In this document: positions 32,128-62,226 of the stretch, in pieces | Layout of the letters: the number at the start of each line of letters is the position of its first letter | Numbering within the stretch: the first letter of the stretch is position 1 | Source of the DNA: Candidatus Rokuibacteriota bacterium | GTDB lineage: Bacteria > Methylomirabilota > Methylomirabilia > Rokubacteriales > CSP1-6 | Assembly: GCA_016188005.1 (NCBI GenBank) | Contig: JACPIQ010000104.1 | Span: 1 to 64,000, forward strand | Direction: 5' to 3' | Length of the DNA: 64,000 nucleotides | Translations under genes and position numbers: made by a program | Notes under the pieces: generated by a model | Databases searched by the model: none | What the model saw: the letters and a program-made list of their open reading frames with translations, nothing else | Told to the model about the DNA's origin: nothing

Positions 32128-32143
32128 TGCAAGCGATGTGCCG
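32128..32143 (-). promoter_or_regulatory. Sigma54-type promoter for nirK
   Basis: On the minus strand CGGCACATCGCTTGCA has GGCAC-N5-TTGCA, with GG and GC exactly 10 bases apart. The predicted transcript starts near 32117, giving a leader of about 38 bases before the nirK ATG at 32079. No other signal was found in this 203-base gap. Confidence 0.6.
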
Positions 32144-32282
32144 CCCGCCCGCCGTTTGCATAGCTGTCTGAATCAGGTGCTTGCGGAGCGTGGTGAAGGC
32201 AGTGCGGGAGGAGGTGTGGCGGCAGCGCCGCCCCGGCTGGGGCGGGGGAGGCCCCGGCAGACGGACTTGCAATGTGCCTAGG

Positions 32283-32696
32283 TCAATGGGGCCGCGAAAG
32301 GCTGATGCGATCGGGGGTCCACGGCGGGTCGAAGGTGAGCTCCACCTCTACCTGCTCGACGCCGGGAATGGCCATCACGGCGCCGCGGACCCAGCCTGGC
32401 ATGACGTCGTGGATGGGGCAACCGGGGGTGGTGAGCGTCATGGTGATCCTGACGCCGCCCTCGCAGATCTCGATGTCGTAGACCAGTCCCAGCTCGACGA
32501 CGGACATGCCGAGCTCGGGGTCGAAGACGGTGCGGAGCGCCTGCCTCACCTGCTCGGGCGTGACCCGGGGGCGCTGGTCGGAGCCGCCCGGCACGCCCAC
32601 GCAGCCAGGATCCTCGGCCACCGGGCCCCGCGGGAGCGCGGAGGCGCGGGTCGTCTCCGAGATGGCGATGAAGGGCGCGCGGTCGGAGAGGCTCAT
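32283..32696 (-). CDS. DUF59/MIP18-family iron-sulfur assembly protein
   Basis: A 137-residue protein with a DUF59 (PaaD/SufT/MIP18) domain: FDPELGMSVVELGLVYDIEI, then MTLTTPGCPIHDVMPGWV with the conserved cysteine, then FDPPWTPDRIS. About 40 extra N-terminal residues precede the domain. The family helps in FeS cluster delivery. The gene overlaps the upstream membrane protein by 4 bases and closes the operon starting at 35240, where the upstream products are RIC-like and may repair clusters damaged by NO. Confidence 0.85.
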   Translation of the reverse strand: MSLSDRAPFIAISETTRASALPRGPVAEDPGCVGVPGGSDQRPRVTPEQVRQALRTVFDPELGMSVVELGLVYDIEICEGGVRITMTLTTPGCPIHDVMPGWVRGAVMAIPGVEQVEVELTFDPPWTPDRISLSRPH

Positions 32697-33997
32697 AGAG
32701 CGGAGAGGCCGAGCGTGGTGGCGGGGGTGCCCGTCCTGCGGCTCGGGGCCAGATGCCTCAGCACACGGCCCAGGGACAGCGCGAAGGCCAGCGCCCCGAG
32801 CGTGACGATGGCGCCGGCGGTGCCGATCCACAGGGGATCGCCGGCGCCCACGGCCACGGCCAGCGCCGCGACCCCGACGGAGAGGAAGCCATGGGTCAGG
32901 CTCTCCCCGAGCGCCCACGGCAGCTGCGCCAGCGTCGGCACCGGCGCCTTGCCCACCAGGGGGCCGTAGACGCGATACCACACGAGGAAGGGGACGATCT
33001 TGAAGAGCATGCCGACGATGGTGAGGGAGGCCCACCCGCCGAGGGCGAGCACGCCGTAGGCGAGGGCCAGCCGTGGCCCTGCCAGGAGCCCGCCGGCAAA
33101 GCCGAGCCCCATGATGCCGGTCGGGACGAGGAAGGCCGTGCCGGTGAGGGCGCAGCGGAGTCCCCAGTCCAGCGCCGGGCGCTTCCGGTTCGCCACCATC
33201 CCCGCGACCCAGACCAGGTGGCCAACGGCTGCGGCCGCCACGCCCAGCGCCCCGGGGATCACGAGCACCGGCACGGCGAGGAGTCCGAGCACGACGGCGG
33301 CCCCGCCCAGGGGGAGGCCCCAGAGCTGCAGCGCGCCCGGCCAGCCCTTGGGATCGCGGGCGAGGAGGAACATCGGGTACACGCGCGCCGCCACGCCCAG
33401 GATCATGGGGGCCACCCAGCCGAGCAGCCCCAGGTGGAAGTGGGCGTGCAGGGTCGGGAAGAAGCCGCCCGGCAGGAACTTCCAGATCCGGTCCGCAGCC
33501 AGCCCGAGGCCGAAGAGGACGGTCAGTGCGAGACCGGCCAGTGCCACGGCCAGGAGGCGCGCGGTGAAGCTCCAGACCTTCACGGCGCGGAGGCTGGCCA
33601 GCGCATTGATCAGATGGACGGTGGCGCCGACGGCGACGACCCCCGCGGCCAGCGCGAGCCCGGGCCAGGTCCCGTTGTAGAAGTGGGCGAGCATGCCGGC
33701 GATGCCGGCGGAGAGGATGACGAATTGCCAGCGCGCGAGCCGCTCGCTCCAGATGGGCCGCTCGAGCACGATGGGGATGAGCTGGTAGCTGGCCCCCATG
33801 ATGGTGAGCGTGATCCAGCCGAGCGTGACTGTGTGGACGAGCGCCACCACCCTCGGCTGGTAGTAGTGGCCCGACAGCGGGGCGGCGAACCACACGGTGC
33901 CGGCCGCGGCCAGGACGAAGGCCAGCGAGGCGGTGACCATGTAGCGCAGCGGCAGCGTGGGGGCCGACGCGCCGGCTCCCGGCCGGAGGGGCCTCAC
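32693..33997 (-). CDS. NnrS/heme-copper-like 12-helix membrane protein
   Basis: A 434-residue protein with about twelve hydrophobic helices. His-rich helices include VVALVHTVTLGWITLTIMGA and LHAHFHLGLLGWVAPMILG, which recall heme-binding helices of NnrS and of heme-copper subunit I relatives. It lies in an operon with DUF2249, RIC-like and DUF59 proteins, next to nirK and a Crp/Fnr regulator, so a part in NO tolerance or denitrification is likely. Its exact chemistry is unknown. Confidence 0.7.
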   Translation of the reverse strand: MRPLRPGAGASAPTLPLRYMVTASLAFVLAAAGTVWFAAPLSGHYYQPRVVALVHTVTLGWITLTIMGASYQLIPIVLERPIWSERLARWQFVILSAGIAGMLAHFYNGTWPGLALAAGVVAVGATVHLINALASLRAVKVWSFTARLLAVALAGLALTVLFGLGLAADRIWKFLPGGFFPTLHAHFHLGLLGWVAPMILGVAARVYPMFLLARDPKGWPGALQLWGLPLGGAAVVLGLLAVPVLVIPGALGVAAAAVGHLVWVAGMVANRKRPALDWGLRCALTGTAFLVPTGIMGLGFAGGLLAGPRLALAYGVLALGGWASLTIVGMLFKIVPFLVWYRVYGPLVGKAPVPTLAQLPWALGESLTHGFLSVGVAALAVAVGAGDPLWIGTAGAIVTLGALAFALSLGRVLRHLAPSRRTGTPATTLGLSAL

Positions 33998-34818
33998 CCC
34001 GCGGCGCCCCGGCGCCGGATCAGGATGCGGACCACCCCGGCCTCGGGCTCGTCAGTCTCATGGGCGAAGCCGCGTTCGTCGAGCTGCGGGTAGAGGAAGA
34101 GCGGGCGACGGTCGTGAATCACCTCGATCGTGCCCCCACCGGCGAGCCCATCGAGCTGCTCGAGGACACGCACCATCGGCTGGGGCGGCTCGAGTCCCCG
34201 CACGTCGACGCGCACGAGGTGGCTCCCGCCAGCCGCCGCGCCTCCGGCTCCCGCCCCCTGCGGCGCCGGCCCGCTTGCCGCGGGCTCGCGGTAGAACCAT
34301 ATGCGCCAGTCGGCAGGGCCGAGGTTCTCCGTCCAGTGGGCGAGCCCGCGCTGGCCGAGCACGTCGTAGAGCGGGACCGGCTCGAAGGGGGCGCGGAGCA
34401 CCAGGACGTCACCGTCGCGGAGCTCCTTCACTGCAGCCATGATGCGGGCGAAGGGCTCCTGGCCGCGCGCGATGTCCTCGCGGACGTCGGCGTGCACCTG
34501 CCGTGCCTGTGGCACTGCGGCCAGCGCCGGCGGCATGAGCGACTCGCCCCCGGGCTCCCCCGCGCTCGGCGCGGCAGCGGCGGCAGCGTGCGGGGGCGGC
34601 GCCGCCTCGCCCACCGCACCCCTAAGCACGCCGAGCATCTCGTCCAGCGACACTCCCGCGATGCGCGCGGCCTGCGCCACCGTCACGCGCGGAGCCATGA
34701 CCTTGCGCAGGAGCTCGTTCCTGAGCTGCTGGAAGTGCGGGTGGTAGACGGCCAGCACTTCCACCAGCTGGGGGTGAGCGTCCAGGAGGCAGGCAACCGT
34801 CTCCTCCGCGGAGATCAT
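33994..34818 (-). CDS. DUF1858-DUF2249 multidomain protein
   Basis: A 274-residue protein. Residues 1-70 are DUF1858/ScdA-N-like (CLLDAHPQLVEVLAVYHPHF...VAQAARIAGVSLDEML). A Pro/Ala linker follows, then two DUF2249 modules: GDVLVLRAPFEPVPLYDVL with WRIWFYRE, and VRVLEQLDGLAGGGTIEVIH with RRPLFLYPQLDERGF. DUF2249 modules are common in denitrifier accessory operons. It overlaps its neighbours on both sides by 4 bases. Function not established; a redox- or NO-linked regulatory role is inferred. Confidence 0.8.
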   Translation of the reverse strand: MISAEETVACLLDAHPQLVEVLAVYHPHFQQLRNELLRKVMAPRVTVAQAARIAGVSLDEMLGVLRGAVGEAAPPPHAAAAAAPSAGEPGGESLMPPALAAVPQARQVHADVREDIARGQEPFARIMAAVKELRDGDVLVLRAPFEPVPLYDVLGQRGLAHWTENLGPADWRIWFYREPAASGPAPQGAGAGGAAAGGSHLVRVDVRGLEPPQPMVRVLEQLDGLAGGGTIEVIHDRRPLFLYPQLDERGFAHETDEPEAGVVRILIRRRGAAG

Positions 34819-35240
34819 GCCGCGGGGTCCTCGGCCCGGCGGAGCGCCTCGAGCAGGGCCTCGAGGGTGACGCCCGCCGAGGCTGCGGCCTCGCGGAGCG
34901 TCAGGTGGCCCCCGCAGCAGTGGTTGATGCCCATCTCTCGCATGACGTCGAGCGCGCCGGGATGGAGACGCGAGACAGCCTCCACCGTCTGCTCGCCGGT
35001 GATTGGCGGTAGCGCCTTGGCAATCTCCACTCGCCAGGTCTCGGGGCCCTCCTCCAGGGCGCGCCAGCCGAAGGTTCCGGGGCGCTCGGCCTGGAACTGG
35101 TAGAAGAGCGGCCTGGGGTCGTGATCGTTCACCAGGACGAAAGCCTCGCCGGCTGCCAGGGCGTCGAAGGTCTCGAAGATCCTGGGGTGGCGAATCCGCG
35201 GCGGGACCTCGCGCACGTCGAGAAGCGTCGGGTGAGCCAT
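34815..35240 (-). CDS. DUF2249 plus RIC/ScdA N-terminal (DUF542) protein
   Basis: A 141-residue protein. The N-terminal half is DUF2249 (FETFDALAAGEAFVLVNDHD, PLFYQFQAERPGTFGWRALE). The C-terminal half is a DUF542 domain with the INHCCGGHLTLREAA motif found at the start of RIC/YtfE/ScdA iron-centre repair proteins. It lacks the hemerythrin part of RIC. It is the first gene of a four-gene operon, 51 bases downstream of the TATGA-N6-TCATA site. Confidence 0.85.
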   Translation of the reverse strand: MAHPTLLDVREVPPRIRHPRIFETFDALAAGEAFVLVNDHDPRPLFYQFQAERPGTFGWRALEEGPETWRVEIAKALPPITGEQTVEAVSRLHPGALDVMREMGINHCCGGHLTLREAAASAGVTLEALLEALRRAEDPAA

Positions 35241-35290
35241 GGTCTGTGTCCTCCTTCTGCCCCAGGCTACACACGCTCCGCCGCGCCTCC

Positions 35291-35306
35291 TATGACCGTC
35301 GTCATA
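35291..35306. promoter_or_regulatory. Crp/Fnr-type operator TATGA-N6-TCATA (site 2)
   Basis: TATGACCGTCGTCATA shares 12 of 16 bases with site 1 at 30936-30951, including both half-sites in full. It is centred about 58 bases upstream of the ATG of the DUF2249/RIC-like operon and beyond the end of the 35333-35776 gene, where an activator site would be expected. Confidence 0.6.
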
Positions 35307-35332
35307 CACAGCGAACTGCGGCACGAGCCGAT

Positions 35333-35776: not shown

Positions 35777-35801
35777 GGGACTAGAGGTGACGGCGCACCG
35801 T

Positions 35802-36503
35802 CTACGGCTCCTCGCCCTGGGCCAGCGCGCGGAGCGCCTCGATGTCCGTCAGGATGAGCCGGCCGCCGTCGTCCCGGATCAGCCCGTCCTTGTGCCAGCG
35901 GCTCACGACCCGGATGGTGGTCTCGACGGTGGTGCCGGTCATGTCGGCCAGGCCCTGTCGCGTCAGGTGGAAGGGCAGCGTGATCCCCTGCCGGCTCCTG
36001 GTGCCCTCGCGCTCCCCGAGCCGGACCAGCGTGGCGGCGAGCCGGGCCTCCACGGGATCCACGGCGAGGGACTTGACCGAGTCGTGGGCGGCCCTGAGCC
36101 GCCGGCCGATCATCAGCGCCATCTCCCTGATGACGGACGGGTAGCGGTCCGACAGGCCGGTGATGGCCTCGGCGGGGATCTTGAGGACGACGCTCGGCTC
36201 GGTCACCTGGGCGCTGGCGGGGTAGGGGCGCTTCTCGATCACCGCGACGCCGCCGAAGAGCTCGCCCGGTCCCAGCAGCTCCAGCACCACGTCCTTGCCG
36301 GCGCGCGAGTGCCTCACGATCTTCACCCGCCCCGACTTGACGATGCACAGCGCCAGCGACGGATCGCTCTCCATGAAGACGTACTCGCGGGCACGGTAGC
36401 TGTCCTCGGAGACGACGGCGCTGAGGGCTTCGATCTCTCGCGCGGGGAGCGAGGCAAAGACAGGACTCTGTCTGAGGAAAGCCTGTACCTCGCGAGCGGA
36501 CAT
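35802..36503 (-). CDS. Crp/Fnr family transcription regulator
   Basis: A 233-residue regulator. It has a cyclic-nucleotide-type sensory barrel (residues about 15-120, with GPGELFGGVAVIEKRPYPASA), a dimer helix and a C-terminal winged helix. The recognition helix reads TVETTIRVVSRW, with the Glu and Arg that read the TGA core in Crp and Fnr. It has no Fnr-type N-terminal cysteine set, so an O2-sensing FeS cluster is unlikely; Dnr/NnrR-like NO sensing would fit the neighbours. It probably binds the two TATGA-N6-TCATA sites. Confidence 0.9.
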   Translation of the reverse strand: MSAREVQAFLRQSPVFASLPAREIEALSAVVSEDSYRAREYVFMESDPSLALCIVKSGRVKIVRHSRAGKDVVLELLGPGELFGGVAVIEKRPYPASAQVTEPSVVLKIPAEAITGLSDRYPSVIREMALMIGRRLRAAHDSVKSLAVDPVEARLAATLVRLGEREGTRSRQGITLPFHLTRQGLADMTGTTVETTIRVVSRWHKDGLIRDDGGRLILTDIEALRALAQGEEP

Positions 36504-36654
36504 CGGTCCGAGGATAGCACAGGGGCGCGCGCCACTTCGACGGGCCCGGCACCCGAGCGGCCGGGGGGAGCCGGCGCCTCACGAGGGGCGGTGGTGCCCC
36601 AGCGACCCTCTCGGACCGCTCTCCGTAACGTCCCGGGCTGGCGTCGGTTCCCCG

Positions 36655-36670
36655 TGGCACCGGCGTTGCA
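36655..36670 (+). promoter_or_regulatory. Sigma54-type promoter, near-leaderless, for the P-type ATPase
   Basis: TGGCACCGGCGTTGCA matches the -24/-12 consensus at all defined positions but one. The predicted start is near 36681, two bases before the ATG at 36683. No Shine-Dalgarno sequence precedes that ATG, in agreement with a leaderless message. Confidence 0.7.
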
Positions 36671-36682: not shown

Positions 36683-39370
36683 ATGAGCCCGCCCAGCGAG
36701 GCGCGGAGAGGGCTCTCGCCTCACGCCCTCGACCACGCTGAAGTGGTGGCCCTGCTCGGCACCCATGCCGAGGTGGGTCTCGCGCCGGACGAGGCGCGCC
36801 GCCGGCTCGAGCGCGTGGGCGAGAACCGGGTGGGCGAGCACCGCGCCCGCCCGCTGTGGAGGCTCGCGCTCGATCAGTTCCAGAGCCTGGTGGTGCTGCT
36901 GCTCCTGGCCGCCGCCGTCGTCGCGTGGCTGCTCGGCGAGCGGGTGGAGGCCGCGGCGATCCTGGCGGCGCTTCTCCTCGGCGCGGTCATTGGCTTCGTT
37001 TCCGAGTGGCGCGCGCGGGTATCGCTGGCCCGTCTTCGCGCGCTGGCCGTGCCCCAGGCACTATGCCGGAGGGGCGGCGACGTCCTGCGTGTGCCGGCGG
37101 CCCAGCTCGTGCCCGGCGACCTCATCGTGCTCGAGGCGGGCGCACAGGTCCCCGCCGACGCCCGCCTGGTGAGAAGCTCGGCACTCCGCGTGACGGAGGC
37201 GGCGCTCACGGGAGAGAGCCTCCCCGGCGAGAAGGATGCTGCTGCCCGTGTTGCGCCCGACACGCCTCTCGGGGACCGCCGGACCATGGTCTACCTCGGG
37301 ACGGCAGTGGTCGCCGGCAGCGGGCTCGGCGTCGTGACGGCCACGGGGCTCGCCACGGAGCTGGGTCGCATCGGCCAGCTGGTCGCCCTGGCCGGGGACA
37401 GGGCGACGCCGCTCGAGCGCCAGGTCGAGGCCCTCGGGCGCCGGCTCATGGTCCTGGCGCTCGGGATCTGCGCGGTGGTGGGGATTGCGGGGATCCTTCA
37501 CGGCGAGCCGCTGGGGCTCATGCTGGAGACGGCCATCAGCCTGGCGGTGGCCGCCATTCCGGAAGGCCTGCCGGCAGTCACGGCCGTGGCGCTGGCGGCC
37601 GGGCTCTGGCGGCTGGCGGCGCAGGGCGCGCTGGTGCGCCGGTTGCCGGCGGTGGAGACGCTGGGCTCCACCACGGTGATCTGCGCCGACAAGACGGGCA
37701 CGATGACCGAGAACCAGATGAGCGTGGTGCGCATCCATCTCGGCGGCCGCACGCTGGCCGTGGAGGCTGACCCGCGCTCCCCTTCGGGAGAGTTCCGGGA
37801 GGACGGCTTGCGGCTCGACCCGCTCGCCGAGCCTGACCTCGTGACGCTGCTCACCGTGGCGGCGCTGGCCAATGACGCGGCCCTGGAGTGGCGCCCCGAG
37901 GGACTCCGGCTCCACGGCGATCCCACGGAGTCCGCGCTGCTGGTCGCAGCGCTCAAGGCCGGGCTCGACCCCGGCGAGATCGCTCGGGCCTGGCCCCGCC
38001 GGGGCGAGACGCCCTTCGACCCGGCGACGCGACTCATGGCGACGTTCAACGACACCCCTGGGGGTGGCAGCGCGCTGCTCGTCAAGGGCGCGCCGGCCGC
38101 GGTGGTGGAGCGCTCGAGCCGGTGGGAGGCCGCCGGCGGCAGCATCCCGCTCGACCCTGCCGCCCGGGAGGCGCTGCTGGAGGCGAACGGCGCCTTCGGG
38201 CGCGACGGCCTCAGGGTGCTGGCCGTGGCCTGGCGCCCCGAAGGAGCGCTTCCGGGGGGCCCCATCGAGGAGCTGACGCTTCTCGGGCTCGTGGGGCTCG
38301 CGGATCCGGTGAGGCCGGGAGTGAGGGAGGCGATTGCCCGCTGCGCCGCAGCCGGCATCCGCACCGTCATGCTCACCGGCGACCAGCGCGTCACCGCCGA
38401 GGCTGTCGGACGCACCCTCGGGCTGGCGCCGGATGCGATCCGGAGCCGGGTCAGCCCGGAGGAGAAACTCGCGCTGGTCCAGCGACTCCAGGGCCAGGGC
38501 GAGGTGGTCGCCATGACGGGCGACGGGGTCAATGACGCCCCGGCGCTGGCCAGGGCCGACATCGGCATCGCCATGGGCCGCCGCGGCACCGACGTCGCCC
38601 GGGAGGCCGCTGACCTCGTGCTCACCGACGACAACTTCGCCTCCGTCGTCCGGGCGGTGGAGGAAGGGCGCGTCATCTACACGAATCTGCGCAAGGTCAT
38701 CCACTTCCTCTTCTCCTGCAACCTCTCCGAGATCCTGATCATCCTCGTGGGGATCCTGCTGGGGCTGCCGGCGCCGCTTCTGCCCTTGCAGATCCTCTGG
38801 GTCAACCTCGTGACGGACATCTTGCCGGCCGTCGCGCTGGTCCGCGATCCCCCCGAGCCCGACGTGATGCGGCGGCCGCCGCGCGACCCGCAGGAGGCGC
38901 TGGTGACGTGGCGCTCCGGCGGGCGCATGGTGGTGGAGGGGGCGCTCCTGGCGGCCGGGGTGCTGAGCGCCTACCTGTGGGCCGTGTGGCGGGAGGGGGC
39001 TTCGGCTCACGCGACCACCATCGCGTTCGTCGCGGTGGTCGTGATCCATCCGTTCCAGGCCATGAACTGTCGCTCGGACCGGGTGGGGTGGTGGCGGCTG
39101 CCGCCCAACTGGCTGACATGGGCCGCTCTGGGGGTGCTCCTGGGCTTGCAGTGGCTGGCCGTGTCCTGGCGGCCGCTCCGCTTGGTGCTGGGGGCTGTCC
39201 CCCTCTCCGGCGCGGACTGGCTCACGGTGATGGGCGCGGTCGTGTGGCCCGTGCTCTTGCTCGAGGCGGTGAAGGCCTGGCGGCGCTCGGGTGACGGGGT
39301 GGGGTGCCCTCGCCCCACCTCCTCGCCGGCCGGACCGGAGGCGGCGCGCGGAATGCCCCGAAATCCTTGA
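36683..39370 (+). CDS. P2-type cation-transporting ATPase (Ca2+-type)
   Basis: An 895-residue P-type ATPase. It has the N-terminal cation ATPase domain, TGES at 176-179 (actuator), phosphorylated D336 in DKTGTMTEN, and GDGVNDAPALARADIG near 613. Ion-site residues known from the sarcoplasmic Ca2+ pump are present: PEGLP in M4, N-x-x-E in M5 (CNLSEI) and NLVTD in M6. Ca2+ (or Mn2+) export is therefore likely. It heads a co-directional set of stress genes (HPF, Usp, baeRF, MAT, Lon-like) behind a sigma54-type promoter. Confidence 0.9.
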   Translation: MSPPSEARRGLSPHALDHAEVVALLGTHAEVGLAPDEARRRLERVGENRVGEHRARPLWRLALDQFQSLVVLLLLAAAVVAWLLGERVEAAAILAALLLGAVIGFVSEWRARVSLARLRALAVPQALCRRGGDVLRVPAAQLVPGDLIVLEAGAQVPADARLVRSSALRVTEAALTGESLPGEKDAAARVAPDTPLGDRRTMVYLGTAVVAGSGLGVVTATGLATELGRIGQLVALAGDRATPLERQVEALGRRLMVLALGICAVVGIAGILHGEPLGLMLETAISLAVAAIPEGLPAVTAVALAAGLWRLAAQGALVRRLPAVETLGSTTVICADKTGTMTENQMSVVRIHLGGRTLAVEADPRSPSGEFREDGLRLDPLAEPDLVTLLTVAALANDAALEWRPEGLRLHGDPTESALLVAALKAGLDPGEIARAWPRRGETPFDPATRLMATFNDTPGGGSALLVKGAPAAVVERSSRWEAAGGSIPLDPAAREALLEANGAFGRDGLRVLAVAWRPEGALPGGPIEELTLLGLVGLADPVRPGVREAIARCAAAGIRTVMLTGDQRVTAEAVGRTLGLAPDAIRSRVSPEEKLALVQRLQGQGEVVAMTGDGVNDAPALARADIGIAMGRRGTDVAREAADLVLTDDNFASVVRAVEEGRVIYTNLRKVIHFLFSCNLSEILIILVGILLGLPAPLLPLQILWVNLVTDILPAVALVRDPPEPDVMRRPPRDPQEALVTWRSGGRMVVEGALLAAGVLSAYLWAVWREGASAHATTIAFVAVVVIHPFQAMNCRSDRVGWWRLPPNWLTWAALGVLLGLQWLAVSWRPLRLVLGAVPLSGADWLTVMGAVVWPVLLLEAVKAWRRSGDGVGCPRPTSSPAGPEAARGMPRNP

Positions 39371-39379: not shown

Positions 39380-39395
39380 TGGCATTGACGTTGCT
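39380..39395 (+). promoter_or_regulatory. Sigma54-type promoter (near-match) for the HPF-like gene
   Basis: TGGCATTGACGTTGCT has GG and GC 10 bases apart and TTGCT at -12; T replaces C after GGCA. The predicted start is near 39406, right at the GGAGGAGGG ribosome site of the GTG at 39418, so the message would carry a very short leader. Confidence 0.55.
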
Positions 39396-39417: not shown

Positions 39418-39771
39418 GTGTCCATCGAGATCAGCGGGATCGACCGGAACGTCGCGCTCCGGAGGCGCGTGGAGAGGCAGATCGGGGCGGCGCTCGGCCC
39501 GCTCCGCGTGGCGCCGGTGAAGGCGCTGGTGTCCTTCTTCGACGACAACGGGCCCAAGGGGGGCCTCGCGCTTCGCTGCGCCGTCACCGTGCGCGTGCCG
39601 TACCGCCCGGCGATCCGCGTGGAGAACACCGCGGCCACGGCCCGGGTGGCCTTCGACGGCGCGCTGGGCGTGCTCGAGCGCCAGCTCGAGCGCTACCGCG
39701 AGCGCGACAGGGACGTGCGCCGGCGGCCGAAGAAGTACTTCGCCGCGAAGCGCCTGCTGGGAGGAGGATGA
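39418..39771 (+). CDS. HPF/RaiA-like ribosome hibernation factor
   Basis: A 117-residue protein with the fold of ribosome-associated inhibitor/hibernation factors: ISGIDRNVALRRRVERQIGA at the start and a basic C-terminal helix (LERQLERYRERDRDVRRRPKK). Members bind the 30S decoding site and silence ribosomes in starvation. It is short-form (no dimerisation tail). The GTG start is chosen because GGAGGAGGG precedes it. It overlaps nothing and leads directly into the Usp gene. Confidence 0.75.
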   Translation: MSIEISGIDRNVALRRRVERQIGAALGPLRVAPVKALVSFFDDNGPKGGLALRCAVTVRVPYRPAIRVENTAATARVAFDGALGVLERQLERYRERDRDVRRRPKKYFAAKRLLGGG

Positions 39772-39774
39772 GCC

Positions 39775-40221
39775 ATGGCGAAGCGAATCCTGGTGCCACT
39801 CGATCAGTCGGCGCTCGCCGAGTCCGTGATCCCGCTGGTGGGGGACGCGGCGCGCGGCGCCGCGGCGACGGTGCGCCTCCTGCACGTGGCGCCGATGCCC
39901 CAGAACCGGGTGGACGACGAGGGCCGGGTGGTGGCGTATTCCGATCAGGAGATGGCGCGGCTCGAGGCCGCGGCGCTGGACTACTTGGGCGGGCTGGGGC
40001 TCGGGCTCTCGGGCGTGCCCGTGGAGTATGCGGTGCGCTTCGGCGAGCCCAAGCAGGAGATCCTCGTGGAGGCGGAGGACTGGGATGCCGACCTCATCGC
40101 GGTGACCACGGCGGGTCGGAGCGGGCTCTCGCGCACCGTGCTGGGCAGCGTGGCCGAGCACGTGTTCAAGAAGTCGGACGTCCCCGTGGTGCTGTTCCAC
40201 CCGCGGCGGTCCAGGGATTGA
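39775..40221 (+). CDS. Universal stress protein (UspA family)
   Basis: A 148-residue Usp domain. It opens AKRILVPLDQSALAESVIPL and ends with the nucleotide-binding G-x2-G-x9-G-S type loop (TTAGRSGLSRTVLGSVAEHVF) and VPVVLFHP. The ATP-binding residues look intact. It starts 3 bases after the HPF-like gene, so the two should be made together under stress. Confidence 0.9.
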   Translation: MAKRILVPLDQSALAESVIPLVGDAARGAAATVRLLHVAPMPQNRVDDEGRVVAYSDQEMARLEAAALDYLGGLGLGLSGVPVEYAVRFGEPKQEILVEAEDWDADLIAVTTAGRSGLSRTVLGSVAEHVFKKSDVPVVLFHPRRSRD

Positions 40222-40251
40222 CAGGTACCCGATGCGGTGCGCGAAGAGACG

Positions 40252-41391
40252 ATGGAGCCGGACATGCAGCTCAAGGCGCGGCTGGCAGAGCTGGCCCGGG
40301 TCAAGAGCGTGGCGCCGCCCGTGGTCAGCGTGTACCTGGACACCCGCTGGGAGGATGAGCACCAGCGCGACCGGGTGCGGCTCTTCCTCAAGAACGAGTT
40401 GAAGAGGGCGCGGCAGGGGGCGGGCCCCCGGTGCGCCGAGCCGGATCTCGGCTGGATCGAGGCCCAGGGCGAGGCCCTGGTGAGCCAGGAGCGCCTGCCG
40501 GCGGCCCGCGGCGTGGCGATGTTCGCGTGCGGGACGGCGGGGCTGCGCGAGGTCCTGCCCGTGCGGGTGCCCTTCGACAACGCCTTCGTGGTGGCCGAGG
40601 CGCCGCATCTCGCCCCGCTCACGGAGGCGCTGGAGGAGGCGCCGCCCTCGCTGGTCGTCTTCGTGGACGGCGAGAGCGCGCGGCTGGTGCCGCTCACCGC
40701 AGAGGGCGCCGGCGCGGAGATCCGGCTCGAGAGCGAGGTGCCGGGCCACCACCGGCGCGGCGGGTGGGCGCAGCTCGCCCAGTCGCGCTACCAGCGGCAC
40801 ATCCAGGACCACCGGGGGCGCCACTTCGAGGCGGTGGCCCAGAGCCTGATCGCGTTGGCCGAGGGCAATGGCGTCGAACGCATCGTGGTGGCCGGGGAGC
40901 CGCGGAACATCACCGCGCTCCGCCAGCACCTGCCCCCGCGCCTCCTGGACCGCGTGGCTGGCACGCTGTCCGCCGCGCGCCGGGAGGCGATGGGCGCCAT
41001 CCTGGGCCGCGCCGCCGAGTTGCTCGTGCAGCTCGAGAAGGCCGGACTGGGCGCGGCCGTGGACGCGGCCCTGACCGAGGCGGCCAAGGGCGGGCGCGCC
41101 GTGGCCGGCGTCGGGCCGACACTCGAGGCGGTGGGCCGGGGCGCGGTGCGGCGGCTGTATCTCCTCAAGGGCTTCCGGGAGCAGGGGCGCGCCTGCGCCG
41201 GGTGCGGGGCCGTCGGGCGGGGCGTCGGGACCGTGTGCGCGGGGTGCGGCGGGCCGGCCGCCGCCGTGGAGCTGGGCGCAGCATGCGTCGACCGGGTGAT
41301 CGCCGCCGGCGGTGGCGCCGACCTGGTCGAGCCTCACGAGGCGCTGGCGCGGGCCGGGGGAATGGCCGCCCTCCTGCGCTACCCGCTCTGA
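40252..41391 (+). CDS. baeRF-type (eRF1/Vms1-like) protein
   Basis: A 379-residue protein resembling the bacterial archaeo-eukaryotic release-factor-like (baeRF) group. It has VVSVYLDTRWEDEHQRDRVR near the start, SLVVFVDGESARLVPLT, RYQRHIQDHRGRHFEAVA, VERIVVAGEPRN, and a C-terminal zinc-ribbon-like pair (CAGCGAVGRGVGTVCAGC). No GGQ motif is seen. Relatives include Vms1-type peptidyl-tRNA cleaving enzymes in ribosome rescue. ATG at 40252 or 40264 may be used. It lies after HPF and Usp, which supports a ribosome-related stress role. Confidence 0.75.
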   Translation: MEPDMQLKARLAELARVKSVAPPVVSVYLDTRWEDEHQRDRVRLFLKNELKRARQGAGPRCAEPDLGWIEAQGEALVSQERLPAARGVAMFACGTAGLREVLPVRVPFDNAFVVAEAPHLAPLTEALEEAPPSLVVFVDGESARLVPLTAEGAGAEIRLESEVPGHHRRGGWAQLAQSRYQRHIQDHRGRHFEAVAQSLIALAEGNGVERIVVAGEPRNITALRQHLPPRLLDRVAGTLSAARREAMGAILGRAAELLVQLEKAGLGAAVDAALTEAAKGGRAVAGVGPTLEAVGRGAVRRLYLLKGFREQGRACAGCGAVGRGVGTVCAGCGGPAAAVELGAACVDRVIAAGGGADLVEPHEALARAGGMAALLRYPL

Positions 41392-47419: not shown

Positions 47420-47435
47420 AGCAAGCCTCGTGCCC
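47420..47435 (-). promoter_or_regulatory. Sigma54-type promoter for the CBS-rtcA operon
   Basis: On the minus strand GGGCACGAGGCTTGCT matches TGGCACG-N4-TTGCT at all defined positions except the first. The predicted start near 47409 gives a leader of about 44 bases to the ATG at 47365. Confidence 0.65.
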
Positions 47436-47597
47436 CGCCCGGATGACTCGACGATGGCTCCCGGAGCAGGGCAAGTCAAGGAGAAGGCCGAAGGCCCGGC
47501 AGGTGGGCTGCGGCGGCGATGTCCCAGGTGAGACAGCGGCGCCCCGTCGGGCCGGAGCCGACAGCCGGAAAGGCCGCGAAATCCTGACGGGCCCGAG

Positions 47598-47613
47598 CGG
47601 CACCCAACTTGCT
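47598..47613 (+). promoter_or_regulatory. Sigma54-type promoter pointing to the ligase remnant and GYD gene
   Basis: CGGCACCCAACTTGCT has GGCAC-N5-TTGCT with the exact 10-base GG-GC spacing. The predicted start near 47624 lies about 40 bases before the ATG of the decayed ligase at 47664. The 160 bases between this site and the divergent one at 47420 contain no gene and may hold activator sites. Confidence 0.6.
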
Positions 47614-47663
47614 CGTCATGCGAGAGGGCCCAGACCCAAGTGCTGGCGGGAGGCAGCGAGCGT

Positions 47664-47912
47664 CATGGCCGACGGGACACTGGCCGGGCTCTCCTGGAAC
47701 CGCGTGGACGCGAGCGGGTCATTGCCCGCTCGTTCGATGAGGCGCGGCGGCCGGTGGCTCACGCTCACCTGGGCCGAGGTCGGAGAGCGCGTCCGCGACG
47801 CGGCGCTGGCTCTGCCCGCCCTCGGCAGGAAAACGGGCGAGGCCGTGGCGCTCGTGTCCCGACGCCGCGCCCACCGGGTCTGGGCCGACTGCATCGTTCT
47901 CCGAGCCGCCCG
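47664..47912 (+). pseudogene. N-terminal remnant of an AMP-dependent acyl-CoA ligase
   Basis: From the ATG at 47664 (GGGAGG ahead) the frame reads MADGTLAGLSWNRVDASG, then RGGRWLTLTWAEVGERVRDA, then ALGRKTGEAVALVSRRRAHR and WADCIVL. This is the usual N-terminus of long-chain acyl-CoA synthetases (W...LTWAE, LG...G..VA..S.NR..W...D..IL). After about residue 83 the similarity stops, and the P-loop and the rest of the enzyme (some 500 residues) are missing. It is probably a deletion remnant. Confidence 0.6.
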
Positions 47913-48008
47913 CCTTACGGCGCGCACCCATTCGACATCGAGTCGCTCCACCGCCGGCAGCGCCCGGCGGGGCGCGGGCCCCGGTGGAGCCAGCATGGAG
48001 GAGTCGCC

Positions 48009-48317
48009 ATGGCCACGTATGTCATGCTGACCCGGTTGAACCCCGAGGCCGTGAAGGTGCCGCAAGACCTCAAGAGGCTGGAGCGGGCCGTCGCCGATCA
48101 CGTACGCAGAGACTGCCCGCAGGTGAGGTGGATCTCCAGCTACGCGCTGCTGGGCCCCTACGACTACCTGGATCTCTTCGAAGCCCCCGACGAGGAGACG
48201 GCCGCCAGGGTCCTGGTGATCGCGCGCTCCTACGGCCACGCCCAGACCGAGACATGGACCGCCGTGCCATGGGACCGCTTTGAGAGCCTCCTCTCGACGG
48301 TCGTCGTGGCAGCCTGA
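48009..48317 (+). CDS. GYD domain protein
   Basis: A 102-residue GYD domain protein: ATYVMLTRLNPEAV at the start, LLGPYDYLDLFEAPDEETAA (the GPYD motif that names the family) and a YGHAQTETWTAVPWD end. The fold is ferredoxin-like; the function is unknown. ATG at 48009 has GGAGGAG ahead. It is the first intact gene behind the 47598 sigma54-type promoter. Confidence 0.85.
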   Translation: MATYVMLTRLNPEAVKVPQDLKRLERAVADHVRRDCPQVRWISSYALLGPYDYLDLFEAPDEETAARVLVIARSYGHAQTETWTAVPWDRFESLLSTVVVAA

Positions 48318-54409: not shown

Positions 54410-54506
54410 ACGGGCACCGGGGCGGTCGTGCCTCAACCGGGATCGGGAGTCCCAGCCCCGACTGAACCACATGGGGCCAAGTACCTGTGTGCATGGGGTT
54501 CTGGAG

Positions 54507-54522
54507 TGGCACCCGAGTTGCT
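54507..54522 (+). promoter_or_regulatory. Sigma54-type promoter for groEL
   Basis: TGGCACCCGAGTTGCT agrees with TGGCACG-N4-TTGCT at all defined positions but one. The predicted start near 54533 gives a 41-base leader to the ATG at 54574. No CIRCE or sigma32-type element is seen in this 164-base gap. Confidence 0.7.
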
Positions 54523-54573: not shown

Positions 54574-56190
54574 ATGGCTCACAAGAAGGTCCTGTTCCGG
54601 GCCGAAGCCCGCGAGCGCCTGCTGCGCGGCGTCGCCACGCTCACCGATGCGGTCCGCGTGACGCTCGGGCCACGATCGAAGTCGGTGCTCATCGAGAAGC
54701 GCTACGGCAGCCCCATCGTGTGCAACGACGGCGTCACCATCGCCAAGGAGATGGAGCTCGAGGACCCGGTGGAGAATCTCGGGGCGCACATGATCCGCCA
54801 GGCGGCGGAGCGCACTGGCGAGGCGGTGGGCGATGGCACGAGCACCGCCACGATCCTGGCACACGCCATCTTCGCCGACGGCGTACGGAACGTGGTGGCG
54901 GGGGCCAGCGCCATCGACCTCAAGCGGGGGCTCGACCGGGGGGCGCGGGTGGCCATCGAGGCGCTGCGCGGGCTCTCCCGCCCGGTGCAGAGCCGCAAGG
55001 AGAAGGCCCAGGTGGCCACCATCTCGGCCCACAACGACCCCGTCATCGGGGAGCTGGTGGCGGAGGCCACGGAGCGCGTCGGCGCGGAGGGCGTCATCAC
55101 GCTGGAGGAGTCCAAGGGCACGGAGACCCAGATCGAGGTGGTGGAGGGGATGCAATTTGATCGCGGCTACATCTCCCCCTACTTCGTCACCGACGCGGAG
55201 AAGATGGAGGCGGTGCTGGAGGACGTGCTCCTGCTCGTCACGGACAGGAAGCTCGGCGTGATGAAGGACCTGCTGCCGCTGCTGGAGCAGGTGGCCCGCA
55301 CCGGGCAGTCCATCCTCCTCATCGCGGAGGACGTGGACGGCGAGGCGCTGGCGACCCTCGTCGTCAACAAGCTCCGGGGCACGCTCCGCTGCGCGGCGGT
55401 CAAGGCTCCGGGCTTCGGCGACCGGCGGAAGGAGATGCTGCAGGACATCGCCACCCTCACCGGTGGCCAGGCGGTCACCGAGGAGCTCGGCGTCAAGCTC
55501 GAGAACCTCGCGGTGGAGCAGCTCGGCCGGGCGAAGCGTGTCGTCGTGGATCGCGAGCACACCACCATCATCGGCGGGGGCGGCGACAAGGCCGCGATCG
55601 AGGGGCGCAAGCAGCAGCTCCGCGCGCAGAAGGAGAAGACCACCAGCGAGTACGACCGGGAGAAGCTCGAGGAGCGGTTGGCCAAGCTCGCGGGCGGGGT
55701 GGCGGTGATCCGCGTGGGCGCGCCGTCGGAGGCCGAGATGAAGAGCCGCAAGGAAGCGCTCGACGACGCCATCGCCTCGACGAAGGCCGCCGTGCAGGAA
55801 GGGGTGGTTCCGGGCGCCGGCCTGGCCCTGCTCCGCGCCATGGAGGCGGTGGAAAAGGAGGAGCGGAGCGCGGAGGGCGACGCGCGCACGGGCCTCATGA
55901 TCCTCAGGCGCGCCCTGGAGTCGCCCGCCCGGCAGCTCGCCGAGAACTCCGACGTGGACGGGGGCGTCGTCGTGAACGAGATGCGGAAGAGCGCGGGCAC
56001 CCTGGGCTTCGACGCCGCGCGGCGCGAATACGTGGATCTCGTGGCGGCCGGCATCATCGACCCGACGAAGGTGGTGCGGGTGGCCCTCGAGAACGCCGTG
56101 TCCGTGGCGAGCCTCCTGCTGCTCACCGAGGCCACGCTGACCGAGGTGCCGGAGGAGAAGAAGGAACCGGCGATGTCGATGCACGAGTAG
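54574..56190 (+). CDS. groL: GroEL-type chaperonin (lone paralogue)
   Basis: A 538-residue group I chaperonin. The ATP site has [12 protein letters not shown] and the catalytic Asp in [11 protein letters not shown]. The apical segment RGYISPYF and [11 protein letters not shown] are conserved. The C-terminus ends [12 protein letters not shown] instead of the usual GGM repeats. No groES is next to it. Start [17 protein letters not shown] has GGGAGGAGACGCC ahead. It is probably a stress-specific second GroEL, under the sigma54-type promoter at 54507. Confidence 0.92.
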
Positions 56191-56211: not shown

Positions 56212-57336
56212 ATGATCGTCGGCGTGCCGAAGGAGATCAAGCCGGGAGAGCAGCGCGCGGCGCTCACTCCCGCCGGGGCCCACGCGCTGTCCGGGGCCGG
56301 CCAGCGGGTGGTGGTGGAGGCCGGGGCCGGGGCCGGCAGCGGGATCCGCGACGAGGAGTACGCGGCCGTCGGCGCGGACATCGGCGCCGCTGCGGAGGTC
56401 TGGGCCGAGGCCGACCTCGTCCTGAAGGTGAAGGAGCCACTGCCCGAGGAGTACGGGCGCATGCGGCGGGGGCAGATCCTCTTCACCTACCTCCACCTGG
56501 CGGCCGTGCCCGAGCTGACGCGGGCGCTGCAGAGGGCGGAGGTGATTGCCCTCGGCTACGAGACGGTGCAGCGGGCCGACGGGAGCCTGCCTCTCCTGAC
56601 GCCCATGAGCGAGGTTGCCGGGCGCCTCGCCGTGCAGGAAGGGGCGTACTATCTGAGCAAGGCTCACGGGGGGCGGGGCATCCTCCTGGCCGGCGTTCCC
56701 GGCGTGCCGCGGGGCAACGTGGTGGTCCTGGGGGCCGGCACAGTCGGGCTCAACGCCGCCAGGGTTGCCCTCGGTCTGGGCGCGGACCTGTCCATCCTCG
56801 ACGTGAGCCTCGATCGGTTGCGCCACGCGGACGAGGTGTTCCGGGGGCGGGCCGTGACGCTGGCCTCGAACGCCTTCAACATCGCCCGGGTCGTGGAGCG
56901 GGCCGATCTTCTCATCGGCTGCGTGCTGGTGCCGGGCGCCCGGGCCCCCCTGCTCGTGACGCGGGAGCTGGTGGAGCGGATGAAGGACGGGGCCGTGATC
57001 GTCGACGTGGCGGTGGACCAGGGCGGCTGCGTGGCTACGATCCGGCCCACCACCTTGCTCGAACCCGTCTACCGCCTGGGAGGTGTCGTCCACTACGGCG
57101 TTGCCAACATGCCGGCGCTGGTGCCGCGGACCTCGACCTTCGCCCTCACCAACGCGACCCTGCCGTACGTCCTCACGCTGGCAGCCCTGGGACCCGCCCG
57201 GGCCGTTGCCTCGAGCCCCGAGCTGGCCCCGGGGGTCAACGTCTGGCGCGGCAGGATCACTCACCCGGCCGTCGCCGAGTCCGTGGGGGAGTCGGCGGTG
57301 CCCCTGGCGACATGCCTGTCCGAGGAGAAGCGGTGA
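56212..57336 (+). CDS. ald: Alanine dehydrogenase
   Basis: A 374-residue enzyme: MIVGVPKEIKPGEQRAALTP at the start, the pyruvate-site Lys in LKVKEPLPEEY, catalytic His in LFTYLHLA, NAD loop VVLGAGTVGLNAARVALGLG, and VDVAVDQGGCVATIRPTT. It interconverts alanine and pyruvate with NADH and supports redox balance and wall precursors in anaerobic or dormant cells. It is 21 bases after groEL and overlaps the CBS-ACT gene by one base. Confidence 0.93.
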   Translation: MIVGVPKEIKPGEQRAALTPAGAHALSGAGQRVVVEAGAGAGSGIRDEEYAAVGADIGAAAEVWAEADLVLKVKEPLPEEYGRMRRGQILFTYLHLAAVPELTRALQRAEVIALGYETVQRADGSLPLLTPMSEVAGRLAVQEGAYYLSKAHGGRGILLAGVPGVPRGNVVVLGAGTVGLNAARVALGLGADLSILDVSLDRLRHADEVFRGRAVTLASNAFNIARVVERADLLIGCVLVPGARAPLLVTRELVERMKDGAVIVDVAVDQGGCVATIRPTTLLEPVYRLGGVVHYGVANMPALVPRTSTFALTNATLPYVLTLAALGPARAVASSPELAPGVNVWRGRITHPAVAESVGESAVPLATCLSEEKR

Positions 57337-58681: not shown

Positions 58682-58695
58682 GAGGGAGGGTCATC

Positions 58696-59190: not shown

Positions 59191-59192
59191 GG

Positions 59193-62003
59193 TCAGGACG
59201 GACTCGCAGGCTCCTCGCCGAGCCGGCGTGCGATCACCTCCCGCGAACGATCGCGCAGACGGACGAGGGCGGGCCAGCCGCCGCCCTCGGCCGGGATCGG
59301 AGCGCCCACCGCGATGGTGATCGCCCCCCGACGCGGTAGCCAGCTGTCCGCGGGGAGGATCTCCCGAGTCCCGCGGATCGCCACGGGGATTACCGGGCAG
59401 CCGGTCTCGGCTGCCGCCTTGAAGGCGCCCAGCCTGAAGGGCAGGAGCCCAGGGGGGCGCAGGAACGTCCCCTCGGGGAAGACGAGGAGGGAGAGACCGC
59501 CCCGGAGCGCAAGGCTGGCCCTGTCGGCGTCCTCGAGGCTCCTCGCCAGATCCGTGCGGTTCACGGTGAGATGACCGGCCTTGCGGAGGACGGTGCCGAT
59601 GACGGGCGAGCGCAGGAGCTCGCGCTTGGCCACGAAGCGGAACTCGCCCGGGAGCCCCGCCAGGAGCGCCACGGCGTCGAGATAGCTCGAGTGGTTGGCC
59701 ACCAGGACCGCGGGCCGAGCGCCGCCGAGATGTCCGAGCCCCTCCACGCGCACGGGGCAGCCGGCCAGCGCGAGGATGAGCTGGCACCAGAGCCGGGACA
59801 GCCCGTGGGCCGGCCGCCCGCGCGGCACGAGGATCAGCAGCAGCCAGAGCAAGGGCCAGGTCAGCGCGAGCAGTCCGCCCACGTAAGTGCCGTAGAGAAG
59901 GGCGCGCAACTGCTGCGCGGCCCGTGAGGCGCTGGCGAAGGCCCCCTCCAGGAGCAGGCGTGCCCACTGGGCGTGGGCCGATGGGCGGCCTCGCGCGAGA
60001 TCTCCGGCGAGATAGGCGTCCCGCGTGGCGCTGCGCCGCACCTTGCCGCTGGAAGTCTTGAGCACGGTGCCGGGTCCGGCGATCACGACGGCGTCGGGCG
60101 GGATGCCGAGGAGCGTCGTGACCTGCTCGATCACGCTTCGCTCGAGGGGCTCCCTGGCCTCGCGGGCAGTGGCACGGCTCTCTGCCACCACGATCAGCCG
60201 CTCTGTCCCGAGTGCGGCATCCCAGACGCCGAAGGCCGCCACACACCCCTTGCGGATGCTCGGGATGTCGCCCACGACCTCCTCGACTTCCTGCGGATGG
60301 AGGTTGCGCCCCGCCTTGATGATGAGGTCCTTGACGCGGCCCGTGACGAAGAGCTCGCCTTCCGCGAGATAGCCGATGTCGCCGGAGTCGAGCCACCCGT
60401 CGCGGCGGACGGCCCGTGTGGCCTCGGGGTTGCGGAAGTAGCCGGCGGCGATCGACGGGCCGCGGATCTCGAGCCGGCCAGCGGCCCGTTCGGGCAGCGA
60501 CTGTCCGGCGGCATCCACCACCCGCACCTCGTGCCCCGGCAACGGGAGCCCGCAAGAGGCGAACCTGAGGGGGCGGGGATCGGCGGGCGCGGCAGCCAGC
60601 GCCTGGCCATGCCGCTCGAAGGGCCCGCGAGCGACCCGGTCCACCCTGGGGAGCCTCCCGCGGGGCGAGGCCGTGAGACCCACTGCGGACTCGGCCAGAC
60701 CGTAGACGGGGCACATGGCCTCCGGCTTGAAGCCGTAGGCCGAGAAGCGGCGCGTGAAGCGCTCGATAGTCTCGGGGCTCACCGGCTCGGAGCCGTTCAG
60801 CGCGAGCCGCCAGGAGGAGAGGTCGAGCCCCTGGAGCTCGTCGTCGCGCACCGTCCGCACGCAGAGGTCGAAGGCGAAATTGGGCGCCGGGGAGAGGGTA
60901 GCGCGGTGGGCGCAGACCGTCCAGAGCCAGCGCGCCGGCCGCGAGAGGAAGGCCAGGGGCGGCAGGATGGCGATGGGGATGCCGAAGTAGAGCGAGCCGA
61001 GCCACGAGCCTATGAGCCCCATGTCGTGATAGAGCGGCAACCAACTCGCGCCCACGTCGTCGGGGCGGATGGCGAGGGCTTCGCCGATGGCCCGGATATT
61101 GGCCAGGATGTTGGCGTGGGAGAGGAGTACGCCCTTGGGCTGGCCCGTGCTCCCGGAGGTGTACTGGATCAGGGCCGGGGAGTCTCCGCCGAGCGAGAAG
61201 GCGGGCGGGCGGGCGCCAGTGACGGCCAGCCGCTCCACGGTGGTCACCTCTCCGAGCGCCGGCGCGCGTCCTCGCAGGAGCCTCGCCAGGCGCTCCACCT
61301 CGGCGAAGGTGATCAGCAGCCGGGCCTCGGCATTCCTCAGGATGCCGGCCTGCCGGCGCGCATATTCCTCCATCCGATCCGCCCGGAGCGGGGGATAGAT
61401 CGGGACGGGGACAGCGCCGGCCATGAGCGCACCGAAGAAGGCCTCGAAGAAGGCGGTCTCCGTCCTCAGCATGAGCGCCACGGATTGCCCGCGTGCGATC
61501 CCGCGCTCGGCCAGCCCGGCGGCCACGCGGCCGGCGCGGTCGAGGAGGGCCCCGTAGCTGATGGGTCGCTCGGCGCCGCCGTCGTCGCGGAGGAAGATGT
61601 GGATGCGGGCAGGATCCGCCTCCGCCTGATGCCGCAGGACCTCCACGAGGGTGGCGGCCGTGGCCGGTGCGCGCGGCCCTGCCGGCAAGGCGGGGAGCGG
61701 CTCGTGCGCCTCCTCGGGGACGGCAGGCGCCCCGCGCCCCACGGCGCGGGCCAGGTCGCGGGGGGTATCCGCTTCCGCCATCGTGGCGTCGGGCAGGCGC
61801 ACGCCGAAGGCCTGCTCGATGCGCAGCAAGAGTTCGACACGCTCCAGGCTGCCCAGCGCGAGATCGCGGTCGAGGGAGTCATCGAGCCCGGGGACGCGGT
61901 GTGAGGGCAGCGCGCCCAGCTCCTCGCTGAGCGCGCTGACGATGGCGAGGACGCGCTCCTCGAGGACTTCCGCGGGAATCCCCTGGATCTCGGTGACCGC
62001 CAT
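59193..62003 (-). CDS. ACP-like domain + fatty acyl-AMP ligase + PlsC acyltransferase fusion
   Basis: A 936-residue three-part protein. The N-terminal carrier domain has Ser in DLALGSLERVELLLRIE (residues about 10-85). A FAAL-type adenylation domain (about 115-690) has YTSGSTGQPKGVLLSH, WLPLYHDMGLIGSWLG, YGLAESAVGLT and LKTSSGKVRRSA. After two hydrophobic stretches, a PlsC-type acyltransferase follows with NHSSYLDA (H-x4-D) and FPEGTFLRP. It could activate a fatty acid, load it on its own carrier and move it to a lipid acceptor in the membrane. The start at 62003 has a weak ribosome site. Confidence 0.88.
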   Translation of the reverse strand: MAVTEIQGIPAEVLEERVLAIVSALSEELGALPSHRVPGLDDSLDRDLALGSLERVELLLRIEQAFGVRLPDATMAEADTPRDLARAVGRGAPAVPEEAHEPLPALPAGPRAPATAATLVEVLRHQAEADPARIHIFLRDDGGAERPISYGALLDRAGRVAAGLAERGIARGQSVALMLRTETAFFEAFFGALMAGAVPVPIYPPLRADRMEEYARRQAGILRNAEARLLITFAEVERLARLLRGRAPALGEVTTVERLAVTGARPPAFSLGGDSPALIQYTSGSTGQPKGVLLSHANILANIRAIGEALAIRPDDVGASWLPLYHDMGLIGSWLGSLYFGIPIAILPPLAFLSRPARWLWTVCAHRATLSPAPNFAFDLCVRTVRDDELQGLDLSSWRLALNGSEPVSPETIERFTRRFSAYGFKPEAMCPVYGLAESAVGLTASPRGRLPRVDRVARGPFERHGQALAAAPADPRPLRFASCGLPLPGHEVRVVDAAGQSLPERAAGRLEIRGPSIAAGYFRNPEATRAVRRDGWLDSGDIGYLAEGELFVTGRVKDLIIKAGRNLHPQEVEEVVGDIPSIRKGCVAAFGVWDAALGTERLIVVAESRATAREAREPLERSVIEQVTTLLGIPPDAVVIAGPGTVLKTSSGKVRRSATRDAYLAGDLARGRPSAHAQWARLLLEGAFASASRAAQQLRALLYGTYVGGLLALTWPLLWLLLILVPRGRPAHGLSRLWCQLILALAGCPVRVEGLGHLGGARPAVLVANHSSYLDAVALLAGLPGEFRFVAKRELLRSPVIGTVLRKAGHLTVNRTDLARSLEDADRASLALRGGLSLLVFPEGTFLRPPGLLPFRLGAFKAAAETGCPVIPVAIRGTREILPADSWLPRRGAITIAVGAPIPAEGGGWPALVRLRDRSREVIARRLGEEPASPS

Positions 62004-62043
62004 GGCCTCAGCCAGAATGACGCTCGAGCCCGGGATCAGGGGT

Positions 62044-62059
62044 TGCAAGGGAGGTGCCC
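62044..62059 (-). promoter_or_regulatory. Sigma54-type promoter for the FAAL-PlsC gene
   Basis: On the minus strand GGGCACCTCCCTTGCA has GGCAC-N5-TTGCA with exact spacing. The predicted start near 62033 gives a leader of about 30 bases to the ATG at 62003. Confidence 0.6.
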
Positions 62060-62210
62060 CGCGCCGGCATCCCGTAAGTGAGCGAAACGGCTCTCGCGAC
62101 GCGGAGCCCGACCGAGGGGACTCTGGAGTGGATGTCCCACCTGGGGCACGCTCACCCCGCGGCTGGCCCCGGAGGACCCGCCAAGCAGCGGGAAACGGCG
62201 GGAGATCCGG

Positions 62211-62226
62211 TGGCACCGGGCTTGCT
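62211..62226 (+). promoter_or_regulatory. Sigma54-type promoter for the HAD-ATPase gene
   Basis: TGGCACCGGGCTTGCT matches the -24/-12 consensus at all defined positions but one. The predicted start near 62237 is only about 4 bases before the GTG at 62241, so the message may be leaderless. It is divergent to the site at 62044, with some 150 bases between for shared activator sites. Confidence 0.65.

Follow-up and report, generated by a model that had tools for sequence, protein, structure and literature searches.

Gene content and sigma54 promoters of the island

The window, i.e., the whole 64,000-nt stretch of DNA analysed here (contig C104:1-64000), carries a series of genes preceded by sequences of the form GGCAC-N5-TTGCW, which present the -24/-12 signature of sigma54 promoters with GG and GC 10 bp apart, lie between genes and are oriented toward a gene. 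One of them, GGCACATCGCTTGCA (32128..32142, minus strand), precedes nirK (31015..32079, minus strand), encoding a copper nitrite reductase (TIGR02376, 332 bits, over the cut-off); the other proteins were assigned by Pfam unless indicated. The gene for a Ca2+-type P-type ATPase (36743..39370, plus strand; best NCBIfam match SERCA-type, below cut-off) is located downstream of GGCACCGGCGTTGCA (36656..36670, plus strand). The next promoter, GGCATTGACGTTGCT (39381..39395, plus strand), a near-match to the pattern, precedes an operon (39418..41391, plus strand) encoding HPF (39418-39771), Usp (39775-40221) and a baeRF family 10 protein (40237-41391). Two divergent promoters follow. The first, GGCACGAGGCTTGCT (47420..47434, minus strand), points at the gene for a CBS-BON protein (46673-47365, minus strand), beyond which lies rtcA (45588-46520, minus strand); a 152-bp gap separates these two genes, and the co-transcription of rtcA is putative. 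The second, GGCACCCAACTTGCT (47599..47613, plus strand), points at an acyl-CoA ligase remnant and the gene for a GYD-domain protein (48009..48317, plus strand). The groEL gene (54574-56190, plus strand) and the alanine dehydrogenase gene ald (56212-57336, plus strand) are preceded by GGCACCCGAGTTGCT (54508..54522, plus strand). A second divergent pair, GGCACCTCCCTTGCA (62044..62058, minus strand) and GGCACCGGGCTTGCT (62212..62226, plus strand), serves the genes for a fatty acyl-AMP ligase-PlsC acyltransferase fusion (FAAL-PlsC; 59193..62003, minus strand; Pfam and NCBIfam) and for a HAD phosphatase-HerA-like ATPase protein (62241..63974, plus strand). The window also encodes an NtrC-type enhancer-binding protein (EBP; 25596-26960, minus strand) with a histidine kinase (26950-28530) and a Crp-type regulator (35802-36503). 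The LonB protein of the island is 70-73% identical to a protein on named Rokubacteria contigs, which places the organism in Candidatus Rokubacteria.

The regulon does not stop at the window end, where the sequence-only reading of this DNA had left it. That reading holds inside the window; 58 bp beyond its end there is an eighth exact site (C104:64058), followed by a one-mismatch site (64414) before a gene for Hsp20. Next come genes for a RND pump, a DUF302 protein, archease and RtcB and, after this region, a promoter at 80062 and a histidine kinase-EBP pair (C104:80118); further members lie on other contigs.

The distance from promoter to called gene start is 14-72 bp at the window sites, with the exception of the GYD gene (395 bp, across the ligase remnant). 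Gene starts were the output of a simple codon-usage caller, and the HAD-ATPase start, just 14 bp past its promoter, implies either that the leader is very short or that the start was misplaced.

Exactly seven exact matches to GGCAC-N5-TTGCW are present in the window, where dinucleotide shuffles yield 0.18 on average and never more than 2. The count and strands given by the sequence-only reading were right, while the plus-strand starts of its four exact sites on that strand were off by one (36655, 47598, 54507 and 62211, corrected to 36656, 47599, 54508 and 62212). Across the 5.37 Mb of the genome (140 contigs) there are 39 exact matches versus five for the reversed pattern used as a control. 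Every one of the 37 sites compared with the gene calls falls between genes, an outcome in favour of the earlier reading, which equal density inside genes would have refuted, and a 38th is intergenic too; the intergenic share of the DNA is only 6-11%. Eight of the 39 sites fall inside 32128-64072, where 0.23 are expected (P ~2e-10). The presence of rpoN had been set beforehand as a test, and a single gene was found (C8:168067; PF04552, E 4e-60), alongside 46 hits for the sigma54-activator domain. One-mismatch matches taken alone occur at about chance level, which is what would be expected if the sites were a chance or compositional product of 71% GC DNA. The exact counts, the intergenic placement of every examined site and their conservation in relatives (see below) already refute such an origin, to which we attach practically no probability.

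An inverted repeat upstream of the promoters

A second element, which the sequence-only reading had missed, is the 18-bp inverted repeat TGRGGCR-N4-YGCCYCA. Nine upstream regions of the island contain it, and every promoter of the island has it at a distance of 51-94 bp on the upstream side. The repeat was first spotted by eye and then confirmed de novo by palindromic expectation maximisation (EM; log-likelihood 51.8 versus 27-31 in shuffles); exact dyad counting for a shared motif yielded nothing clear. Leave-one-out p values are ≤0.024 at every island site. The weakest match is that of nirK (32215..32232, 72 bp from the -24 GG, p 0.024). The repeat of the Ca2+-type ATPase, AGGGGCGGTGGTGCCCCA, lies at 36584..36601 (54 bp from GG, p 0.0025), that of the HPF operon, TGGGGTGCCCTCGCCCCA, at 39300..39317 (63 bp) and that of groEL-ald, CGGGGCGGTCGTGCCTCA, at 54418..54435 (72 bp, p 0.0013). 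The two divergent pairs have one repeat each: that at 47529..47546 is common to the CBS (94 bp) and GYD (52 bp) promoters and that at 62142..62159 to the FAAL (83 bp) and HAD (52 bp) promoters.

Scanning contig C104 from end to end retrieved 14 pairs of repeat and promoter (allowing 0-1 promoter mismatches), 13 of them intergenic, whereas the same scan of the reversed contig retrieved none. Among the approximately 27 sigma54 sites on other contigs, the repeat is clear at three and marginal at one, and a further off-island repeat is found at C123:3978, at 104 bp; the repeat is thus rare at sigma54 promoters elsewhere in the genome (4-5 of ~27).

Helical phasing of the repeat and an IHF-like element

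The distance between the repeat and the -24 GG was analysed in 138 composites (repeat plus promoter) of the family and order, a number obtained with one strict pattern and, like the other composite counts, a lower bound. Distances peak at 51-54, 62-65 and 72-76 bp, with longer ones near 83 and 93 bp, i.e., mostly in helical steps of ~52, 63, 74, 84 and 94 bp. The Rayleigh P value is ~1e-18 and the periodicity exceeds that of all 5000 uniform simulations. Phased spacing is a requirement of a DNA-looping EBP, and the repeat, upstream of the promoter at looping-compatible distances, has the placement of an EBP enhancer (UAS).

Upstream of GG, A/T-rich positions at 17-20 and 28-30 bp form an IHF-like element, YAA-N6-GATT, which scores 4.04 of 9 at offset 30 (shuffle maximum 2.85). 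This element is missing at sigma54 sites without the repeat. Five genes of the HU/IHF family are present in the genome, and IHF may act at the A/T element, the central TT of the IHF consensus being not conserved.

The sigma54 sites only implied a regulon; it is the shared and phased enhancer that makes the promoters the set of one activator, and the sigma54 regulon proposed earlier is supported in this form. The helical quantisation, as a looping activator needs, also argues against a scheme with several activators in which the repeat is the site of another protein, such as the Crp-type regulator. The frequent location of a Crp-type gene in the cluster and the presence of several EBPs in the genome would fit that scheme. 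The recognition helix of the Crp-type regulator is of the ordinary type, presumably reading TTGAT/TGTGA-like half-sites, and we consider this explanation very improbable.

Conservation in relatives

In family relatives, whose genomes are draft MAGs, the pair of repeat and promoter is found before HPF, Usp, nirK, Hsp20-archease-RtcB and groEL, so that the conservation upstream of orthologues anticipated for these sites is indeed observed. The HPF promoter is kept as TGGCAT-N5-TTGCT in four relatives (G002, G020, G066 and G053), with a repeat spacing of 63-64 bp, which establishes as real the near-match previously placed at 39380 (here 39381-39395). An enhancer and a sigma54 site precede nirK in G048, G026 and G025; a 78-aa nirK-like ORF in G018 (L304) was treated as a possible fragment and left uncounted. 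The Hsp20-archease-RtcB operon carries the composite in G056 and G020, and the groEL promoter is conserved in G001 with a spacing of 72 bp. Both the FAAL and HAD promoters and their common enhancer are conserved in G001 and G002. In G002, sites 64058 and 80062 are conserved, the GYD-side promoter is identical and the enhancer common to CBS and GYD is perfectly conserved; the CBS-side promoter is degenerate there and kept in L113. In spacer alignments, the promoter and repeat blocks stand out. Among class-level relatives (Methylomirabilis-type), the EBP described below is kept at ~60-62% and composites are near background; we therefore claim the regulon for the family and order only.

A candidate activator encoded outside the window

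The HPF/Usp clusters of relatives adjoin a histidine kinase-EBP pair whose orthologue in the present genome (69-73%) is encoded on contig C103, whereas the window EBP reaches only ~45% with the EBP beside these clusters. The C103 pair consists of a PAS histidine kinase (C103:12155-13798) and an NtrC-type response regulator (C103:13795-15201), and precedes a promoter with sigma54 site and repeat and Usp genes. The kinase, with approximately five membrane segments, has PAS and HisKA/HATPase domains and no GAF domain. The regulator is composed of a receiver domain, an AAA+ sigma54 domain with a GAFTGA loop and a Fis-type HTH. It could not be assigned to a named equivalog (AtoC, NtrC, ZraR, NtrX, NorR or RtcR): of the NCBIfam equivalogs listed for it, none reaches its cut-off, the best being AtoC (462 of 714 bits).

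In 18 of 21 loci of the family and order, an enhancer-promoter flanks the orthologue of the C103 EBP, whose recognition helix, GIDRKTFHRL, does not vary within the family. Family genomes with this EBP contain 4.28 composites on average versus 1.24 in those without it (p 1.3e-5), and 12 of the 14 composite-rich genomes encode it. No orthologue was detected in the remaining two, G016 and G023, drafts that are 93% and 81% complete, which may reflect a draft-genome gap. In G004 and G013 the EBP is present with no strict composite, G013 having a weaker enhancer-promoter beside it. Presence and linkage together point to one activator, the C103 kinase with its NtrC-type EBP, which would be the protein that binds the enhancer repeat.

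Two other EBPs have to be weighed. The one in the window (25596-26960) is the closest to the nirK end, lies next to the oxidase/nirK block together with a kinase of its own, and has an orthologue alongside composites in G002, G011 and G023. These are, however, just three of the 14 composite-rich genomes, and its gene lacks a flanking enhancer-promoter in its own contig, in G002 and in G011. We thus rejected it as the activator for its too few orthologues and lack of a flanking enhancer, and would be surprised if it held this role. Besides the C103 pair, two more histidine kinase-EBP pairs are present on the island contig and could contribute to regulation; the C104:80118 pair itself carries the enhancer. 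Its EBP (C104:81650-83041) might be an autoregulated activator of the whole set, or share the enhancer with a second EBP, as the repeat lies before its kinase at 74 bp, also in G002. Orthologues in only four of the 14 composite-rich genomes make it too rare for a general activator, its recognition helix differs, and the enhancer site suits a downstream cascade better. This alternative is unlikely, if slightly less so than the window EBP or the Crp-type protein. We conclude that the sites are very probably genuine sigma54 promoters of a single-activator regulon driven by the C103 pair, a reading drawn from sequence comparison.

In the mechanism that we propose, the membrane-bound PAS histidine kinase would phosphorylate the NtrC-type regulator, which would then bind TGRGGCR-N4-YGCCYCA, located upstream of the promoter at one of several distances, each an integral number of helical turns. 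A bend at the IHF-like A/T element, which precedes the -24 box by ~17-30 bp, would help to bring the regulator into contact with the sigma54-RNA polymerase. Through its AAA+ domain, the regulator would then open, as a single response, the promoters of nirK, Ca2+-ATPase, HPF-Usp-baeRF, CBS-BON, GYD, groEL-ald, FAAL-PlsC, HAD-ATPase and Hsp20. The output may be a holding state under low energy or low oxygen, in which nitrite respiration goes together with ribosome hibernation, chaperones, the repair of RNA and calcium and lipid homeostasis.

Comparison with known regulons

The DosR dormancy regulon of Mycobacterium tuberculosis includes hrp1, with a CBS fold, and Rv0079, with a role in hibernation. 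It comprises Hsp20, several Usps, the cation P-type ATPase ctpF, the hypoxic protein hrp1, nitrate/nitrite genes and a lipid acyltransferase (PMC4090907), and L-alanine dehydrogenase rises in hypoxic mycobacteria (PMC8044303). The Rokubacteria regulon resembles it in its two-component control and in the genes of its output, which match in Hsp20, Usp, cation ATPase, CBS protein, hibernation factor and N-oxide genes. With the sigma54 promoter and enhancer in common, the survival genes are here probably turned on together by one switch, as with DosR; RtcA, GroEL, baeRF and FAAL-PlsC are additional. It differs in its use of sigma54 and an AAA+ EBP with a far enhancer: the DosR response regulator is of the LuxR/NarL type, whereas the putative regulator here is an AAA+ Fis-type EBP, and the GAF-haem sensors DosS/DosT contrast with a PAS-HisKA-HATPase kinase with approximately five membrane helices and no GAF. 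Because regulator class and sensor type differ, the predicted regulon is DosR-like in output and not a DosR member.

The lxa locus of Burkholderia cenocepacia is likewise a clustered block, induced by low oxygen, with ~50 genes and six Usps; it belongs to another phylum, and no sigma54 control, nirK or RNA repair is mentioned for it (PMC9733578). The parallel drawn earlier with E. coli rtcBA holds for promoter architecture, RNA-repair genes lying in both cases behind UAS-IHF-sigma54 promoters. It fails for the activator, RtcR being a CARF-domain EBP specific to rtcBA, whereas the candidate here is a receiver-domain EBP with a broad regulon (PMC9650030). Comparative genomics of EBP regulons in Desulfovibrio vulgaris similarly describes many EBPs, with one palindromic motif per EBP beside sigma54 promoters, motif and promoter often flanking the EBP gene; that text contains no 'universal stress', and we noted no regulon-wide helical phasing in it (PMC4641369). 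Our literature search found no work on Rokubacteria and sigma54, and none combining sigma54, Usp and hibernation, though RpoN/Usp/HPF literature exists. We give even chances to the view that this is a dormancy/hypoxia programme that evolved independently of DosR, with one sigma54 activator, whole-turn enhancer spacing at dozens of promoters, and nitrite respiration coupled to ribosome hibernation and RNA repair.

The distance quantisation of ~138 natural promoters offers a regulon-wide view of a rule known from single engineered promoters. The DosR-like gene set, with Usp, Hsp20, hibernation factor, CBS protein, Ca-ATPase and nitrogen oxides, suggests a persistence module that recurs among bacteria, which have coupled it to distinct kinds of transcription machinery. 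The membership of nirK links the survival state with nitrite reduction in soil, and the uncultured soil phylum Candidatus Rokubacteria gains a concrete stress regulon open to testing, whose activator and binding site are named and whose promoters follow a defined grammar.

RNA repair genes and other genes of the stress island

Genes encoding archease and RtcB are located shortly beyond the window end (C104:69904-71847, locus L032) and form, together with the RtcA gene of the window, a full RNA repair set spanning about 26 kb. The Hsp20-archease-RtcB operon, with its sigma54 promoter and enhancer, is conserved in the relatives G020 and G056.

Upstream of Hsp20, an exact sigma54 site (C104:64058) is oriented towards an unannotated small ORF (C104:64073-64330) of roughly 70 aa that contains Cys. 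Within the stress island, this bacterial host also carries an archaeal-type S-adenosylmethionine synthetase (PF01941; window 41570-42766), whose gene adjoins rtcA in G020. The GYD gene is separated from a conserved sigma54 promoter by an acyl-CoA ligase remnant (47640-48009). In the segment 62212-62241, the start codon of the HAD-ATPase lies only 14 bp past the sigma54 site, a gap identical in G002, so that its mRNA would be nearly leaderless. Next to nirK, DUF2249/DUF1858/ScdA_N proteins (33994-35240) adjoin a Crp-type regulator and cytochrome-oxidase-like fragments; this region is possibly a nitric oxide handling block.

Enhancer-less sigma54 sites and age of the enhancer

Elsewhere in the genome, sigma54 sites lacking the enhancer (L004, L011, L012, L007 and L009) precede genes for a gas vesicle protein, an ANTAR regulator, a pilin-like protein, MlaA and MlaC, and presumably belong to other sigma54 regulons.

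Methylomirabilis-type, class-level relatives (loci L264, L263 and L261) encode orthologues, at about 62%, of the NtrC-type enhancer-binding protein, and near these a sigma54 promoter is still present with a similar repeat at 99 bp. This retention suggests that the enhancer site has an older origin.
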